Assembly (NCBI GenBank): GCA_017547755.1
Contig: JAFYOX010000061.1
Coordinates: forward strand, 1 to 64,000
From: Clostridia bacterium
GTDB taxonomy: Bacteria; Bacillota; Clostridia; Oscillospirales; CAG-272
DNA length: 64,000 nt
Direction of reading: 5' to 3'
A program made the position numbers and the translations under genes. Within the stretch, counting starts at the first letter, position 1. Each line of letters starts with the position of its first letter. Below are positions 25,223 to 35,788 of this stretch, one piece after another. The notes under the pieces were generated by a model. It saw only the letters and a program-made list of their open reading frames with translations, was not told where the DNA came from and did not search any database.

Positions 25223-26923
25223 TTAGCCCGCAGGATAGTTTTCGTCGTACCATGCGCCGTAGATGGACGCGATGGAATTTTCGTTTTCTTCGGTGTCAAG
25301 GAGAGAATTGATGAGTTCGTTGTCCTTGATTTCCTTCTTGATCGCGTCAACGGTGGTCTTCCATTCAGCGAACGGAGTAGCATCGATGGTCGCCTTGTAC
25401 TGCTTGGAAAGTTCAGCAAGTTCAGCAAGCTGAGCCTTGTTAGCATCGTTCACATAGCCGGTAAACTTCATGTACGGGCTGGAGATGGAGTCGATGTTCT
25501 GCTGCTTACCGTATGCCCAGTAATCCATGGAGATGCCTTCGCCCGGGTAGGTCATGTAAACGTTACCGGTCTTGACGATATCCATCTGGTAGTCGTCGCT
25601 GAGGATGGTGATGGTTTCCTTGGTGTCTTCATCATCATAATCCCAGTGAACGCCCTGTGCACCGTACTGAAGAATGGTACGGATATCGGAGCTGGTGTTC
25701 AGGTAAGTGAGAACTTCCATGGAACGGGAAAGGCTCTTGGAGTAGGAGCTTACTGCGAACATGGAACCGTAAGCATCTTCTTCAGTCATCATCGGCTTGG
25801 AGTAGATGTTTACGTAGTATTCGTCTTCGTACTGTTCTACGATGGAAGCGTCGCCGGAGATTACGCCGACTGCGAACTTTTCGCCTTCGTCAACCTTACC
25901 GTCGCCGATGTAGCCGAGTTCGGAGAGTTCCTTCATCATACCAACGGTGTTGATGTATACGTTGGTGGAGAAGATGCTCTTCGGAGCAGCCTTTACATTG
26001 TAGGACATGGTATTGGTGATCTGGGAAGCGAGAACGGACCATTCGTTCGGGTCTTCGCCCCAGTAAACCATGTTGAACGCTTCAACTTCGCCAAGAAGAG
26101 GAGTTACATCTTCAACGCCGTTGTCAACCTGATAGCCCATATCCTTGATGAAGTCCTGGCACTTCAGGAAGGTGCTGAGATCCTTCGGGTTGTAGTCATA
26201 CTTTTCAACGAGTTCCTTGTTTACAAGGAAGTACTGATATTCACCAACCGGATGGTTGTTCGGGATCGCATAAGTACCGCTTACGTTTGCAAGGGTGAGG
26301 TAGGTGGGATAAATATAGGTCTTGAGGATCTTGGAGTTGCCGCTCAGTTCGCCGTCGAGCTGCTGGATCTGTTCGTTTTCAATGTAACGGAGGTAGTTGT
26401 CGTAACCCTGAACAAGGAAGATGTCCAGCTGGTTTGCGCCGACTTCCGGATACTTGATAACGCTGATACCGAGTTCGTTGACGATGGTTTCTTCTTCAGC
26501 GGGTGCTTCAGTGGTTTCTTCTTCGGTTTCTTCTACAGTGATACCCTGAGCCTTGAGTTCCTTGAGTTCCTTTCTCTTGCGTTCCGCTTCTTCTTCTTCA
26601 GCGATGAGCGCAGCAGCAATACGGTCAAGTTCACCATCGATGGTTTCCTGGTACTTGTCTTCCGGAATTGCCTTGAGTTCGATTGCAGTGTCGAACTTTG
26701 CCTGAGTCAGACGGTTGATCTGAGCTTCAGCGAGTTCGATTGCTTCTTCGGTGGTATTCTTGCTGGTAGGCAGCCACAGGGAAAGAGTCATGGAAATACG
26801 AGCTGCTTCTTCAGTATCCGCAGTTGCTTCAACGTCTTCTTCCGTTGCCTGAGAGGAACAACCGGTGAAAGAACCGAGAGCAAGCATCATGGCAAGCAGC
26901 AGGGTTGTGAGCTTTTTATTCAT
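25223..26923 (-). CDS. Extracellular solute-binding lipoprotein with a charged coiled-coil insert
   Basis: The 566-residue product opens with a lipoprotein signal (MNKKLTTLLLAMMLALGSFT, then lipidated Cys22). A solute-binding family 1-like fold follows, but residues about 100-150 form an E/K-rich, coiled-coil-prone insert (EEEEAERKRKELKELKAQ, then EETEEETTEA). Sugar binding is likely from the fold but unproven. The start at 26923 is fixed by AGAGGAGG. No ABC permease or ATPase lies nearby, so it either serves a distant transporter or acts as a sensor. It has a consensus promoter and its own terminator. Confidence 0.8.
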   Translation of the reverse strand: MNKKLTTLLLAMMLALGSFTGCSSQATEEDVEATADTEEAARISMTLSLWLPTSKNTTEEAIELAEAQINRLTQAKFDTAIELKAIPEDKYQETIDGELDRIAAALIAEEEEAERKRKELKELKAQGITVEETEEETTEAPAEEETIVNELGISVIKYPEVGANQLDIFLVQGYDNYLRYIENEQIQQLDGELSGNSKILKTYIYPTYLTLANVSGTYAIPNNHPVGEYQYFLVNKELVEKYDYNPKDLSTFLKCQDFIKDMGYQVDNGVEDVTPLLGEVEAFNMVYWGEDPNEWSVLASQITNTMSYNVKAAPKSIFSTNVYINTVGMMKELSELGYIGDGKVDEGEKFAVGVISGDASIVEQYEDEYYVNIYSKPMMTEEDAYGSMFAVSSYSKSLSRSMEVLTYLNTSSDIRTILQYGAQGVHWDYDDEDTKETITILSDDYQMDIVKTGNVYMTYPGEGISMDYWAYGKQQNIDSISSPYMKFTGYVNDANKAQLAELAELSKQYKATIDATPFAEWKTTVDAIKKEIKDNELINSLLDTEENENSIASIYGAWYDENYPAG

Positions 26924-27177: not shown

Positions 27178-27200
27178 AAAATAGTCAAATAATCTATTTT
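27178..27200 (-). terminator. Weak AT-only hairpin after the sigma-like gene
   Basis: AAAATAG (27178-27184) and CTATTTT (27194-27200) can pair, 8 bases past the stop at 27208. The stem has one G-C pair, so termination is doubtful. The rest of 27022-27177 is AT-rich with a second possible stem (CCAAATACA/TGTATTTG) and no gene. Confidence 0.3.
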
Positions 27201-27207
27201 TCTCAAA

Positions 27208-27936
27208 TCAGCTGTTCGTGCGGCGTCCGGCATCCCAGCGTGCGCGGGGTTCTTCGGACTCAGCGTCCGTATCTTCCGTTTCCGCCGTTTCTTCTTCCGC
27301 AGCGGGTTCTCCGTTGTCCTGTGACGCGATCTCCTCCATAAGTTCCATCACGGAAAGGACTTCGTCGAGCGCAAGGCCGGTATCCTCCGCGATCTCCTCG
27401 GGAGTGGCTTCCCTGCCGAGTTTTTCCTCGAGGACCATATCACTGCGTGAAATGGTATTCAGCAGTTCGGTGAGATGCGCGGGAATTTCTCCGGTCATTT
27501 CCGCGTCCGCCACGGCAAATTCCAGCGCATCGACGACGCAGCCGGCAGCATGGAGGCGGAAATCGCCGTCTTCGGACGAGTAGGTTTCCGCCGCTCCGAC
27601 CAGACCGAGGCTTCCTTCCTGCAGAAGATCGAGGAAGGTCACGCCGCGTCCGATGTAGCGCTTTGCCGCGCAGACAACGATGCGCATCAGTCCTTCGATC
27701 AGATCGGCTTTTGCAGCCGGATCGCTGTCGAGGCGGGATGCGAGATGTGCCGCGCCGTCCGCGTCAAGCGCGGGAAGAGAGGCGATCTCGGAGAGGAAAT
27801 TCTTCGCATGGCGGTTGAGATTCACGCCTTCCTGCGTGAGCATCATCTCCATATCGCCGTACGAAGGGATCAGTTCGGATTCAAAAACGATGTCTTCCGC
27901 AAGTTCCGCGGAGACGGGACCGATGTCGTGATTCAT
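27208..27936 (-). CDS. Degenerate sigma-70-like protein lacking region 4, downstream of rpoD
   Basis: The 242-residue product aligns with the neighbouring RpoD across regions 2 and 3.0-3.1. Core-binding region 2.2 is kept (RYIGRGVTFLDLLQEGSLGL, residues 94-113). Region 2.3-2.4 is degraded: the RpoD stretch [17 protein letters not shown] corresponds to FRLHAAGCVVDALEFAV here, losing the Trp pair and the Gln that read the -10 element. GREATPEEIAEDTGL (174-188) matches Rpo[16 protein letters not shown]. After about residue 205 there is only an acidic tail; region 4 is absent. It starts 19 bases after rpoD behind ACGGAGGAAACGG. A core-binding decoy or modulator is an inference. Confidence 0.75.
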   Translation of the reverse strand: MNHDIGPVSAELAEDIVFESELIPSYGDMEMMLTQEGVNLNRHAKNFLSEIASLPALDADGAAHLASRLDSDPAAKADLIEGLMRIVVCAAKRYIGRGVTFLDLLQEGSLGLVGAAETYSSEDGDFRLHAAGCVVDALEFAVADAEMTGEIPAHLTELLNTISRSDMVLEEKLGREATPEEIAEDTGLALDEVLSVMELMEEIASQDNGEPAAEEETAETEDTDAESEEPRARWDAGRRTNS

Positions 27937-27955: not shown

Positions 27956-29062
27956 TCAGGTCATATCGTTCAGGAAGCCCTTGAGGATCTTCGAACGGCT
28001 CTGGTGACGGAGCTTGCGGAGTGCCTTTGCTTCGATCTGGCGGATACGTTCACGGGTGATGTTGAATTCCTTGCCGACTTCTTCAAGGGTGCGGGTTCTG
28101 CCGTCTTCGAGGCCGAAGCGGAGCTTGATGACCATTTCTTCACGGGGAGTGAGGGTATGGAGCACCTTGTTGAGCTGTTCGCGGAGGAGCTGATAGGAAA
28201 CGGCTTCCGCGGGAGTCGGGGAGGAGTCGTCGGGAATGAAGTCGCCGAGATGGCTGTCGTCTTCTTCGCCGATCGGAGTTTCGAGGGATACGGGGTCCTG
28301 TGCCGCCTTCATGATCTCACGGACCTTGTCCGCGCTCATGCCGAGCTTTTCCGCGATTTCATCGATAGTGGGTTCGCGGCCGAATTCCTGCAGGAGCTGA
28401 CGGGAAGTACGGGAAACACGGTGGATGGTTTCGACCATGTGAACGGGGATACGGATGGTTCTCGCCTGGTCCGCAATGGCACGGGTGATCGCCTGACGGA
28501 TCCACCAGGTCGCGTAGGTGGAGAACTTGTAACCCTTGGTGTGATCAAACTTTTCGACCGCCTTGATGAGACCGAGGTTGCCTTCCTGGATCAGGTCGAG
28601 GAAGTACATACCCTTGCCGACATACTTCTTTGCGATGCTGACAACGAGACGGAGGTTTGCTTCGACCAGTTCGTTCTTTGCGGCTTCGTCGCCGTCGGCG
28701 ATCTTTTCCGCAAGGATGGCTTCACGGTCGGGATCGAGCAGCGGGATCTTGCCGATGTCCTTGAGGTACATACGTACCGGGTCATCCACGGCAACGCCTT
28801 CGTCTGCCAGAAGCTTGTCAATGTCTTCGTTTTCGTCGACATCGCCGGAGGGATCGGCGGTAACATCGTAGCTGTCGTCGTTTTCGAGATAGTTGGTGAC
28901 TTCGATGCCGCTGTTTTCAAGTACTTCGTAGATCTTTTCGATCTGGTCGACATCGTAGCCGGAGAATTCTACGGCTTCCATGATATCGTTGTTCGAGAGT
29001 GAGCCCTGGGACTTCCCCTTTTCGATCAGTCCCTGTACGTCAACTTTCTTTTCGTTATCCAT
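27956..29062 (-). CDS. rpoD: Primary RNA polymerase sigma factor (sigma-A)
   Basis: The housekeeping sigma factor. The 368-residue product has an acidic region 1.1, [11 protein letters not shown] (1.2), [14 protein letters not shown] (2.2), [17 protein letters not shown] (2.3-2.4), the region 3 helices and region 4 with the helix-turn-helix ([20 protein letters not shown]). It follows dnaG by 50 bases, the classic macromolecular-synthesis order, and is followed by a degenerate paralogue. It explains the many TTGACA/TATAAT promoters in the window. Confidence 0.98.
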
Positions 29063-29112: not shown

Positions 29113-30852
29113 TTATGATAACTCCCCGCGTTTCCTTCGAAGGATATCTTCGAGAGAATCGGAGGAACTGCCCTGCTTCAGGGTCTCTTTCCGGAGCGAA
29201 CGCACGAACGTGGCGTACGTCGCTTCGCTGTTGTCGGAAAGCTCGTTGCGCGCGGCAACCATTTCCGACGCGCGGGATACTTCTTCAAAGGAAAATTCTT
29301 CCGAGAGAAGTCCGAGCGAGAAACGGTCTCCGGCTTCCGTCACTTTTTCGAAGAGACGTCTGCCGAGCGCGGTGGTGAAATCATCCGCGGACAGCGGATA
29401 TCCGTCCACCAGACGAGGCAGATATTCCGGATGGATAAAGAGCATCCCGAGAAGGGATTCCTCGATCCGTGCCGCTTTCGGCTGTTTTGCGTAGTCCGGA
29501 TTCACGCGGTCGGCGATGCCGGAGGTGATGCGGATCAGTTCTCCGCGGCGCTTTTTGTCATTTTCCTTTGCCAGACGCCGCATCCGCATATTCACATCGT
29601 TTTCCAGACTCTTCCGGTCGACCTCATACGATTTCGCCGCGCGGTCAATATAGATATCCCTCTCGACGGAGGAATGTATTCCGGCGATGTACGTACAGAT
29701 TTCGGAGATGGCGCGAATCTTTTCCGCGTCGTTTGCGAGATCGTATTTCGCCGCCGTATTCGCCAGAACATAGTCGAATTTCGATCGGCTTTCCTCGATC
29801 AGGGAACGGAACTTTTCTTTTCCGAATTTTTTTATGTACTCGTCGGGGTCCTTGGCGCCTTCCATGTGCAGGACTTTGGTCTCGAGTCCCGCCTTTTCGA
29901 GAAGATCGATGGCACGCGCCGTCGCCTTCTGTCCGGCCTCGTCGCTGTCGTAGGAGATGATCACCTTGCCCGTATACTTCTTCAGCATACGCGCCTGATC
30001 GTCCGTCAGAGCCGTACCGAGCGTTGCGACCGCCATGCCGAATCCGGCATCGTGGAGCGCGATGACGTCCATATAGCCTTCGCACAGGATCATGTAGCCG
30101 GCGTCGGTGTTCTTGGCGTAATTGAGCGCGAACAGGTTGCGGCTCTTCTTGAATGCGGGAGTGTCCGAAGTGTTGAGATACTTCGGTTTGGTGTCGTCGA
30201 GAACGCGTCCGCCGAATGCGATGACATTTCCCGACACGTCAATGATGGGGAACATGACGCGTCCGCGGAAGTAGTCGTAGTAGCCGCGTTCGCTTTTTCC
30301 GGCAAAATACGCGGTCTGGATCTCGTGCGGCTTGAATCCGAGCGAGGTCAGGTGCTTCAGCATCTGGTTTCCGGACGGCGGCGAATAGCCGAGTCCGAAC
30401 CGCTTGATCGCCAGCATGCTCAGTCCACGGTCGACGAAATACCGCCGTCCCGCCGCGCCGATGTTGTCATCGTACAGCATTTTCCGGTAGAATTTTGCGG
30501 CTTCCAGATTCATCTGCAGGACACGGGTACGCGTCACGCCGTCGTCGCGCGGCTTGTCACCGAACTCCGGCAGGGTGATGCCCGCGCGTTTCGCAAGGGT
30601 CTCGACTGCCGACACGTAGTCGAGATTTTCCGTCCGCATGACAAAGCTGATCACGTCGCCGCCTGCGCCGCAGCCGAAGCAGTAGAAACTCTGCGTTTCG
30701 GGATAGACGGTGAACGACGGCGTTTTTTCGCTGTGGAACGGACAGAGCCCCTTGAGATTCGATCCCGCTCTCTTGAGAGAAACATAGGAGGAAATCACGC
30801 TTTCGATATCGCAGCGGTAACGGATATCCTCGATCACATTTGCCGGTATCAT
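29113..30852 (-). CDS. dnaG: DNA primase
   Basis: DnaG makes RNA primers at the fork. The 579-residue product has the CHC2-type zinc finger ([20 protein letters not shown] then YCFGCGAGG, residues about 37-66), the RNA polymerase core and the TOPRIM box ([12 protein letters not shown] with [12 protein letters not shown]). The C-terminal helicase-interaction part is present but diverged. AAAGGAGG lies before the ATG at 30852. It heads dnaG-rpoD-sigma-like. Confidence 0.97.
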
Positions 30853-34151: not shown

Positions 34152-34185
34152 GTGACAGAAAAGGCACGCACCGATGTTCTATAAT
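34152..34185 (+). promoter_or_regulatory. Candidate Spo0A-dependent sigma-A promoter of spoIIGA-sigE, 22-bp spacer
   Basis: TATAAT (34180-34185) has no -35 match at 16-18 bp. GTGACA (34152-34157, 5/6 to TTGACA) lies exactly 22 bp upstream. The Bacillus spoIIG promoter has the same abnormal 22-bp spacing and needs Spo0A-P. The TGACAGAA overlapping the -35 is only a loose match to a 0A box. The region 34062-34151 is otherwise T-rich without a gene. Confidence 0.6.
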
Positions 34186-34222
34186 GCCGTTGACACGCGG
34201 ACGGAGCACGGGGGGAAAACGC

Positions 34223-35002
34223 ATGACGGTGTACGCGGACATTCTGTTTCTCATCAATTTCAGCATGGATTTTCTGAGTCTCTGCCTTGCCGGACGGCTG
34301 ACGTCGGAACGGATGGAACGCCGCCGCCTTCTTCTGTCCGCCGCCTGCGGAAGTTTTCTCGGTACGGCGGCGATGTTCGTTCTCGACGGTATCGTGTTCG
34401 TCCTCTGCGGACTCGGATGCGCCGTCCTCATGACGCGCATCGCGTTCGGGAAACAGAAACGGACGCGGCTCTTTCGCGGAAGCGTGATCCTGTGGGGAAC
34501 GGGGACCCTGCTCGGCGGTCTGATGACATCCGTCCTCTCCGCCGGCGATGCGGCGGCTGTCCGGGATGCGGATGCACCGTTTCCGGCGGTATTTCTGCTC
34601 TGCTTCGCCGTCTCGTCCATGCTTGTGCGTCTGGCAAAGGGCGTATCCGCAAAAACCGCCGCACGCGTGACGGTTTCCGCCGGCGGCATGACGGTCTCGT
34701 TCGACGCACTGTGCGATTCCGGCTGTCTGCTGACCGAGCCGATCTCCGGAATGCCGGTGATCGTCGCTTCCGCAGAGGTGCTCGGACGGATCGGAGAAAT
34801 GCTGGCGGAAGACCGTCCCGTTCTCCGCCTGCGGATGATCCCGGCGGACGGAGTCTGCGGACGATGCCTGCTGCGCGGTTTTGTTCCGGACCGGGTAAGC
34901 GCGGATGGAAGGGATATTTCCGCCGTCATCGCCTGCGGCGGAACGGGGACGGACTACGGCGGCTATTCCGGCATCATTCCCGCACGTCTGGTGCGGCGAT
35001 AA
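34223..35002 (+). CDS. spoIIGA: Pro-sigma-E processing protease
   Basis: SpoIIGA is the mother-cell membrane aspartic protease that removes the pro-sequence of sigma-E after SpoIIR signalling. The 259-residue product has about five N-terminal membrane helices (residues 1-140) and a cytosolic protease domain with the DSG catalytic motif (CDSGCLLTEPISGMPV, residues about 177-192). The start at 34223 (MTVYADILFLINFSMDF) matches the family and follows a G-run. It is 45 bases upstream of sigE, its substrate. Confidence 0.93.
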   Translation: MTVYADILFLINFSMDFLSLCLAGRLTSERMERRRLLLSAACGSFLGTAAMFVLDGIVFVLCGLGCAVLMTRIAFGKQKRTRLFRGSVILWGTGTLLGGLMTSVLSAGDAAAVRDADAPFPAVFLLCFAVSSMLVRLAKGVSAKTAARVTVSAGGMTVSFDALCDSGCLLTEPISGMPVIVASAEVLGRIGEMLAEDRPVLRLRMIPADGVCGRCLLRGFVPDRVSADGRDISAVIACGGTGTDYGGYSGIIPARLVRR

Positions 35003-35047
35003 AGAGGATGAAGAGGAAATATATTATAATGAAACAAGGAGGAAATC

Positions 35048-35788
35048 ATGGCAGTACATACGGGCACACGCAGCGCGCTGGATGCACTCAGCGAATTCCG
35101 GACCGCCGTCGGGCGGATGATGCTCGCCTTCTTCGGTGAAGGCGGAAACTATTACATCAACGGCGCGGAGGTGCTTCCTCCGCCGCTGACATCGGACGAA
35201 GAAGGCGCGGTACTGGCACGCTTTGAGGAAGACCGCAGTCTCGCGGACGTACTGATCCGCCACAACCTGCGTCTGGTGGTCTACATCGCAAAAAAGTTCG
35301 AAGGATGCGGCACGGGGATCGAGGATCTGATCTCCATCGGCACCATCGGGCTGATCAAGGCGATCCACACCTACCGTACCGACCGCGGCATCAAGCTGGC
35401 GACCTACGCTTCACGGTGCATCGAGAACGAGATCCTGATGTATCTCCGGAAAAACGCCTCCCACAAGGGGGATCTCTCGATCGACGAGCCGCTGAACACG
35501 GACGGTGACGGCAACGAGCTCCTTCTGGCGGATATCCTCGATTCCGGCGAAGGTCCCGTCGGGCAGGAGCTGGAACGCTCAGAGGACGAACGCACCGTCC
35601 GGGAAGCCGTCTCCTGTCTGGAGCCGCGCGAACGTGAGATCATCGAACTGCGCTACGGTCTCGGCGGACGGCGCGAAATGACGCAGAAAGAAGTGGCGGA
35701 AAAAATGGGCATCTCGCAGTCGTACATTTCCAGACTCGAAAAACGGATCATCGCACGGCTGAAAAAACAGATCGCACGACGGGTTTGA
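35048..35788 (+). CDS. sigE: Sporulation sigma factor sigma-E (made as pro-sigma-E)
   Basis: Sigma-E runs the early mother-cell programme, including spoIVA. The 246-residue product has an N-terminal pro-sequence of about 36 residues ending in GNYYINGAEVLPPPL, equivalent to the Bacillus processing region (VYYIGGSEALPPPL). Region 2 (EDLISIGTIGLIKAIHTY, ATYASRCIENEILMYLR) and region 4 (EMTQKEVAEKMGISQSYISR) are intact. AAGGAGG precedes the ATG. The sigG gene that often follows in Firmicutes is not here. Confidence 0.96.
   Translation: MAVHTGTRSALDALSEFRTAVGRMMLAFFGEGGNYYINGAEVLPPPLTSDEEGAVLARFEEDRSLADVLIRHNLRLVVYIAKKFEGCGTGIEDLISIGTIGLIKAIHTYRTDRGIKLATYASRCIENEILMYLRKNASHKGDLSIDEPLNTDGDGNELLLADILDSGEGPVGQELERSEDERTVREAVSCLEPREREIIELRYGLGGRREMTQKEVAEKMGISQSYISRLEKRIIARLKKQIARRV

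Follow-up and report, generated by a model that had tools for sequence, protein, structure and literature searches.

A reduced sigma-A paralogue encoded directly behind rpoD in one clade of Clostridia

In sigma factors, binding to core RNA polymerase and promoter reading are the work of adjacent helices within a single small domain. In the window analysed here, a 64,000-nucleotide stretch of DNA from a Clostridia bacterium, the gene directly behind rpoD encodes a homologue of the housekeeping sigma factor that is under purifying selection. Its core-contact residues have been kept, most of its DNA-reading residues have been lost and region 4 is absent. From this pattern we infer a sigma-like fold, binding to core, competition for it and a physiological role as a regulator of the polymerase.

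The reduced gene and its surroundings

The reduced sigma-A paralogue (P0001) extends over 27208..27936 on the (-) strand and encodes 242 residues plus a stop codon, as the initial annotation had it, with regions 2.1, 2.2, 3.0 and 3.1 recognisable. It begins with an ATG preceded by a GGAGG-type ribosome site (GGAGGAAACGG-ATG), 19 nt past the stop codon of rpoD (27956..29062, (-)), whose product, the housekeeping sigma A (copy 1 in what follows), has 368 residues and every region present. Since dnaG, the DNA primase gene (29113..30852, (-)), lies upstream of rpoD in the same direction, a dnaG-rpoD-reduced-gene operon is likely, and co-transcription with rpoD is suggested by a consensus scan that detected no promoter-like site in the 19-nt gap. 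On the other side lies a lipoprotein gene (25223-26923, (-); 566 residues from the likely start), solute-binding-like to the eye and with no Pfam or NCBIfam family match, which has its own near-consensus sigma-A promoter in the consensus scan (TTGACA-17-TACAAT). Similar promoters are visible in most of the other downstream stretches inspected.

A 21-nt AT-rich inverted repeat, AATAGATTATTTGACTATTTT, has been found just past the stop codon of the reduced gene (27178..27198, (-)). It is identical in the three loci that carry the reduced form (window 27178-27198, L045:2100-2120 and L046:4416-4436), unchanged across three species despite far-diverged synonymous sites, and no exact match occurs in the loci of the other genomes compared. 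The repeat is perhaps an operator or a terminator. Elsewhere in the window, at 34184-35788 (+), there is a spoIIGA-like and sigE-like pair, with a weak SpoIIGA match (74.6 bits against a cut-off of 209.6) and a SigE match under its cut-offs. Taken with the presence of Spo0A in 22 of the 25 genomes of the genus, this pair makes the organism probably a spore former. As Spo0A occurs with and without the reduced form, the tie to sporulation proposed in the initial annotation was not borne out.

Homology of the reduced protein to RpoD is far beyond chance. Its best family is the NCBIfam RpoD model (6.1e-34) and its nearest solved relatives are SigA chains (to 2.4e-30), in agreement with its description as a sigma-A paralogue. 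Family cut-offs are not reached, with 117.9 bits against 572 for the RpoD family and 92 against 354 for TIGR02393; the window's own RpoD scores 567.9, narrowly under the first cut-off, and passes the second with 400.9. Two Pfam domains have been detected above their curated cut-offs, Sigma70_r2 at residues 79-131 (profile positions 1-54 of 71, 3.8e-7) and Sigma70_r3 at residues 157-228 (1.2e-9). Searches at E up to 1 gave no Pfam r1.1, r1.2 or r4 and no receiver, NGN or KOW domain, leaving sigma domains only.

Along the protein, the N-terminal part (residues 1-40; 27817..27936, (-)) aligns with the linker ahead of region 1.2 in the intact second sigma genes described below. It is identical among the three orthologues in 24 of 37 ungapped columns and includes a nearly invariant stretch, VFESELIP.YG.MEMML. 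Region 2.1 (residues 75-98; 27643..27714, (-)) is followed by region 2.2 (residues 99-118, VTFLDLLQEGSLGLVGAAET; 27583..27642, (-)) and by the former regions 2.3-2.4 (residues 119-152; 27481..27582, (-)). Region 3.0-3.1 (residues 153-203; 27328..27480, (-)) shows the highest conservation of any part of the three orthologues, with 40 of 51 ungapped columns identical. Only the start of region 3 had been claimed at first; region 3.0-3.1 can in fact be recognised along most of its extent. The acidic tail (residues 204-242; 27211..27327, (-)) is identical in 6 of 33 ungapped columns. It had been described as a replacement of region 4, which fits the failure to find that region in the protein but is incomplete, region 3.2 having been lost too. 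A region 4 displaced by a frameshift was also sought, and six-frame translation downstream of the three reduced-form loci gave no match.

Two further candidates were set aside. For a phage origin, a viral-contig scan with two short peptide patterns only gave 79 pattern stretches and no relative. For a defence-system link, the sole PADLOC match was MzaA, which is uninformative, as MzaA is named a sigma70-family factor in NCBIfam and the match lies over the shared sigma region.

Orthologues, tandem sigma genes and descent

Comparison of 25 genomes of the genus, the window's own (G000) included, has revealed the reduced protein just behind rpoD in three: the window, G013 (L045:1362-2096) and G004 (L046:4445-5197). 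The two orthologues, found in the same place, are 74% (G013) and 65% (G004) identical to the window protein, and the rpoD1 products of these genomes are 97-98% identical to the window's. No intact rpoD2 was found in the three carriers, which are assemblies 70-75% complete. In 19 of the 25 genomes, a second sigma keeps the Trp pair and its neighbours, the promoter-reading residues. It is complete through region 4 in 18 of these 19, the contig of G020 ending past region 3 of its copy, and in 18 it lies directly behind rpoD or behind a contig-start-cut rpoD remnant; in G023 the two sigma copies are on different contigs. Tandem rpoD1-rpoD2 loci are L047, L048, L050, L051, L053-L063 and L066, with cut copies at L049 and L064. 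The rpoD2 branches are longer than those of rpoD1 in many, not all, species, and the literature searched gave no account of this genus-wide pair.

Other arrangements have also been observed. A divergent second copy in G019 (L065:3739-4596, (-); 46% identical to the window RpoD; the contig begins inside the gene) has kept the Trp pair, carries an acidic stretch in place of the 3.2 finger and has an altered C-terminus, which is perhaps another route of change. G002 carries a divergent copy-2 sigma (L060:4511-5638, (+); 62% identical to the window RpoD). In G006 and G016 nothing rpoD-like was detected at E 1e-15 or better, probably as a result of missing contigs, even though G016 is listed as 91% complete. 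A third sigma-A-like gene in G021 (L071:3475-4608) groups with the RpoDs of other families and may be foreign sequence, that assembly being listed as 6% contaminated. Neighbouring rpoD-like pairs are also present in other genera or families of the order (L068 of G042, L069 of G051, L067 of G025, and in G081 and G183); those of G025, G042 and G051 look like separate duplications, as each groups with itself in the tree.

Beyond the genus, a three-sequence profile reached E 1e-52 only in the window's own genome among the genomes drawn at the level of the order (394) and of the class (391). Among 295 genomes of the family the next best match after the window was the intact copy 2 of G007, at 174 bits against 480. 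Both G013 and G004 are absent from the matches of these draws and so were not drawn, and other carriers may likewise have been missed. A single-protein contig scan, which detects close relatives only, returned three loci, none of the reduced form: an RpoD each from Asaia and Microvirga and a 289-residue sigma from Oscillospiraceae. In the genomes searched, the reduced form is restricted to one clade.

What the initial annotation called a paralogue is most likely rpoD2 in reduced form, orthologous to the second member of the tandem pair, which is intact in 19 other species. The reduced gene occupies the place of rpoD2, since the same lipoprotein gene is next downstream, as it is directly downstream of the second sigma in all seven loci inspected (L045, L046, L047, L050, L058, L060 and L065). 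When scored against copy-2 and copy-1 profiles, with each copy-1 and copy-2 member left out of its own profile, the reduced proteins gave log-odds of +74, +82 and +86 in favour of copy 2; the corresponding values were +105 to +171 for copy-2 members, -60 to -164 for copy-1 members and +7 to +66 for 11 single RpoDs of other genera. In the tree, copy 1 forms a clean clade (support 100) and the three carriers are grouped by their copy 1 (support 92). Quick trees placed the reduced proteins nearest to copy 2 in one case and inside copy 2 in another. The first was built without two contig-end fragments (G011 copy 1 and G021 copy 1), and the second, like the AU test and the profile and diagnostic sets, also without the G019, G025, G042 and G051 copies and the G021 third sigma. 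The stem of the reduced proteins amounts to 5.5 changes per column, as against 0.26-0.69 for the tips; with so long a branch the tree does not decide, and descent is judged from position and profile score.

A fresh duplication of rpoD1, which would leave the present function the same and bears on origin, not mechanism, is distinctly improbable. The AU test does not reject a grouping with copy 1 (p 0.714), whose log-likelihood is 5.4 higher than that of the free quick tree. Nonetheless, such a duplicate would have to lie where rpoD2 lies, with rpoD1 on one side and the same lipoprotein gene on the other, and the profile log-odds favour copy 2, lying above those of all 11 single RpoDs. At 12 diagnostic positions, four match copy 2, one matches copy 1 and seven are neither or gaps; the four are weak evidence, as the copy-2 state is often also that of single RpoDs. 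Profile scores and shared position together make descent from rpoD2 the better reading.

Residues kept, residues lost and selection

Residues are given here in Escherichia coli (Eco) numbering, which equals RpoD + 247 from an equal-length match of RpoD 126-366 to Eco 373-613, with region limits set by us. Positions were counted as conserved when they reached at least 97% conservation across 50 intact sigmas (20 copy 1, 19 copy 2 and 11 single RpoDs), a set without the contig-end fragments G011 copy 1 and G021 copy 1, the divergent G019 copy, the G025, G042 and G051 tandem copies and the G021 third sigma. The positions kept in all three reduced proteins number 2/9 in region 1.2, 8/14 in 2.1, 11/15 in 2.2, 3/11 in 2.3, 2/15 in 2.4, 2/8 in 3.0 and 2/4 in 3.1. 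The difference between region 2.2 and regions 2.3+2.4 (11/15 against 5/26; Fisher p 0.001) supports well the claim that promoter reading has been lost, and including region 2.1 gives a similar picture (19/29 against 5/26; Fisher p 0.0009).

The conservation of region 2.2 noted initially is evident, the window's FLDLLQEG aligning with FLDLIQEG of RpoD. Eco D403, Q406 and E407, which we take to be classical core-binding positions, correspond to window D103, Q106 and E107 and are kept in all three reduced proteins, together with L402, L410, V387 and V388. Contacts of sigma32 with the clamp helices have been described for D77, E81, I84 and M87 (PMC10216364, partial text); by the pairing of W108 with W434 in the same source these map to Eco 403, 407, 410 and 413, where the reduced protein has D, E, L and V. 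Four of the 15 conserved positions of region 2.2 are nonetheless lost, and N409 is Ser in all three proteins. On the polymerase side, the beta-prime clamp helices of G000 and G004 are of the same kind as in congeners such as G009. These residues point to region 2.2 as a putative contact for the beta-prime clamp helices, with region 2.1 as part of the same presumed core-binding face.

The residues that act on DNA have fared otherwise. In sigma70, Q437 and T440 read position -12, W434, R436, R441 and R451 influence how duplex promoter DNA is bound, melting is served by Y425, F427, Y430, W433 and W434, and the extended -10 element is touched by H455 and E458 (PMC2613000, partial text); the W-dyad holds the upstream fork (PMC4593229, partial text). 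All three reduced proteins have lost W433, W434, R436, Q437, R441, Q446 and R451 (Lys in G013), Y425 is deleted, the Q437 position is D or E and position 440 is Glu. In the window copy the WW pair has become GC, with Y430 replaced by H, Q437 by D, R436 by V and R441 by F, so that F427 is the sole survivor of the -10 reading and melting residues checked in 2.3-2.4. The absence of a Trp pair, Gln and Tyr, as first described, thus holds in all three proteins for Trp and Gln, but both orthologues retain Y430; F427, H455 and E458 survive in every one of the three. As W433A sigma70 still associated with core (PMC4593229, partial text), loss of W433 need not cost core binding.

Charge has changed along with these residues. 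Regions 2.3-2.4 carry a net charge of -7, -7 and -3 in the three reduced proteins, as against +2 to +4 in the 19 copy-2 proteins and +4 in the 20 copy-1 proteins, and region 3 carries -11, -12 and -11 as against 0 to -4 (copy 2) and 0 to -2 (copy 1). Whole-protein charge (-33 to -38) stays inside the copy-2 range of -23 to -47, so the change lies in the DNA-facing stretches and not in the total. In the alignment of the 2.4 helix, Eco I435, A438, I439, A442 and I443 correspond to V/V/I, A, L, A and V, on the side with aliphatic and small residues, presumably the buried one. Given the retention of these residues, the helix seems to have been kept while its DNA face was remade, and the simplest reading would be that the fold has been retained with a face that repels or resembles DNA.

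The gene is maintained under purifying selection and is not a pseudogene. Whole-gene pN/pS (Nei-Gojobori, three orthologue pairs) is 0.29, 0.34 and 0.33, and bootstrapping puts the upper limits at 0.38, 0.44 and 0.42; these ratios are rough and, if anything, too high, since synonymous sites are near saturation in several regions. The corresponding ratios are about 0.04-0.07 for rpoD1 in these three species and about 0.08-0.31 over 45 pairs among ten intact copy-2 genes. By region, with wide and overlapping intervals, values are 0.16-0.17 for 2.2, 0.14-0.21 for region 3, 0.18-0.43 for 2.1, 0.28-0.33 for 1.2 and 0.27-0.40 for the N-terminus, while 2.3-2.4 reaches 0.30-0.51 (upper limit 1.08 in one pair) and the tail 0.47-0.66 (upper limit above 1 in two pairs). 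Constraint on region 2.2 has therefore not been lost. That it exceeds constraint on 2.4, a prediction of the initial annotation, agrees with the point values (intervals overlap), and identity among the three orthologues is suggestive, not significant (15/20 against 15/32 columns in 2.3-2.4; p 0.08). Conservation in region 3 clearly exceeds that in 2.3-2.4 (40/51; p 0.004).

Whole-gene pN/pS is near the upper end of the range of intact copy-2 genes, differences fall mostly on third codon positions (40/29/105, 53/50/129 and 50/41/127 in the three pairs), and the frame is open in all three species, where a neutral simulation at about half the closest-pair synonymous distance gave a mean of 6 stops and none in 0.2% of 2000 runs. 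A functionless, decaying rpoD2 relic is consequently refuted for the clade as a whole and retains hardly any credibility, even with fast evolution (65-74% identity as against 97-98% for rpoD1) and weak constraint in 2.3-2.4 for one pair and in the tail for two. Later loss of the gene in single strains is possible.

Competition for core and its alternatives

It is tentatively proposed, at a little under an even chance, that the reduced protein is a promoter-blind competitor for the clamp helices, made together with RpoD. The fold of sigma domains 2 and 3 would be kept, and region 2.2 would bind the beta-prime clamp helices of core RNA polymerase. The protein would neither read nor melt the -10 element, most aromatic and polar DNA contacts being gone and the same stretches acidic, and it would not reach the -35 element or the beta flap, region 4 being missing. 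Produced from the same mRNA as RpoD, a protein with a kept clamp-helix contact would compete with RpoD and with other clamp-helix factors for core, and the pool of active holoenzyme would be lowered or tuned. The modulator, decoy or sigma-A antagonist role suggested initially is plausible. RpoD/SigA and the intact rpoD2 products share with the reduced protein the homology over regions 1.2-3.1, the core-contact residues of 2.2 and the place behind dnaG-rpoD; they differ in having the -10 reading and melting residues that it has mostly lost, the 3.2 finger, region 4 and DNA-facing stretches that are not acidic.

Several observations sit less easily with a clamp-helix competitor. Residues that act on DNA in sigma70 have been kept (H455, E458 and F427 in all three proteins, Y430 in two), the Ser at N409 and the four lost positions fall in region 2.2 itself, and the identity contrast between 2.2 and 2.3-2.4 reaches p 0.08 only. 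A fragment with sigma domains 2 and 3 and no sigma 4 may bind core too weakly, and the carriers are three incomplete genomes only. Furthermore, region 3, no less conserved than 2.2, may bear the main constraint, and its role is left unexplained by the competitor model; region 3 and the VFESELIP.YG.MEMML stretch are poorly explained by all models.

A more specific version, to which we give somewhat less credence, is that in this clade the second tandem copy was turned into a dedicated sigma-A antagonist, a stoichiometric brake made from the rpoD mRNA. Anti-sigma factors, among them FlgM and RseA (PMC4598750, partial text) and also AsiA and Rsd, bind sigma; the reduced protein is itself a relative of sigma and would bind core. 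The likeness would lie in a possible net effect, less active holoenzyme. No promoter-blind sigma-A paralogue has been described in the literature searched, most subscription journals lying outside its scope.

An unlikely alternative, though one worth retaining, is a sigma mimic that would titrate an anti-sigma-like protein off region 2 of RpoD and so free RpoD, in the manner of PhyR and NepR. Anti-sigma factors often cover region 2.2, and PhyR of alphaproteobacteria, likewise descended from a sigma, has ceased to work as one (PMC4598750, partial text); a conserved region 3 and a lineage-specific N-terminal stretch would suit a protein partner other than core. The conserved residues of region 2.2 are, however, those that contact core, and no anti-sigma gene was recognised adjacent to the locus, where the same-strand neighbours are rpoD, dnaG and the lipoprotein without a family match. 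PhyR, moreover, is ECF-like (sigma 2 and sigma 4), is fused to a receiver and binds the anti-sigma NepR (PMC4598750, partial text), whereas the reduced protein is sigma-A-derived, consists of sigma 2 and 3 and has neither the receiver nor the sigma-4-like part.

Since NusG uses the same clamp-helix site as sigma and the two can be in competition there (PMC3382729, partial text), an effect on elongation has also been considered, in which the protein would sit on the clamp helices without reading DNA and alter pausing or keep NusG or sigma off. NusG and RfaH, both able to compete with sigma (PMC3382729, partial text), would have in common with the reduced protein the beta-prime site proposed here; unlike them, the reduced protein shows neither an NGN nor a KOW domain. 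An acidic surface that keeps off DNA would be apt in a factor that has to avoid sigma-dependent pauses, and the kept F427, H455 and E458 are in keeping with such a factor, but no feature of the sequence favours elongation complexes over free core, and we regard this explanation as rather improbable. Least credible among the active roles is half of a split sigma, an altered -10 reader working with a separate sigma-4 protein. The pair SigO-RsoA of Bacillus subtilis is split in this way and reads promoters; the reading surface of the reduced protein has changed beyond recognition, the Trp pair being gone, Q437 replaced by D or E and T440 by E. Although sigmas of this kind exist, with regions divided over two proteins, one without region 4 (PMC10141391, partial text), and although H455 and E458 of region 3.0 are kept, no sigma-4-only gene was noticed among the neighbours of the locus, and this possibility is very slight.

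Core binding and promoter reading have seemingly been separated here by evolution, with the reading residues erased and the binding residues kept under selection, and the intact sister genes in 19 related species provide before-and-after controls. The genus-wide tandem pair of primary sigma genes is worth study by itself. If the reduced protein does bind core, the gene behind rpoD would encode a regulator of the housekeeping polymerase that derives from a sigma factor, and would offer a simple way to ask how the supplies of sigma and core are balanced. Should the antagonist reading be true as well, an anti-sigma activity would have evolved from a sigma factor.
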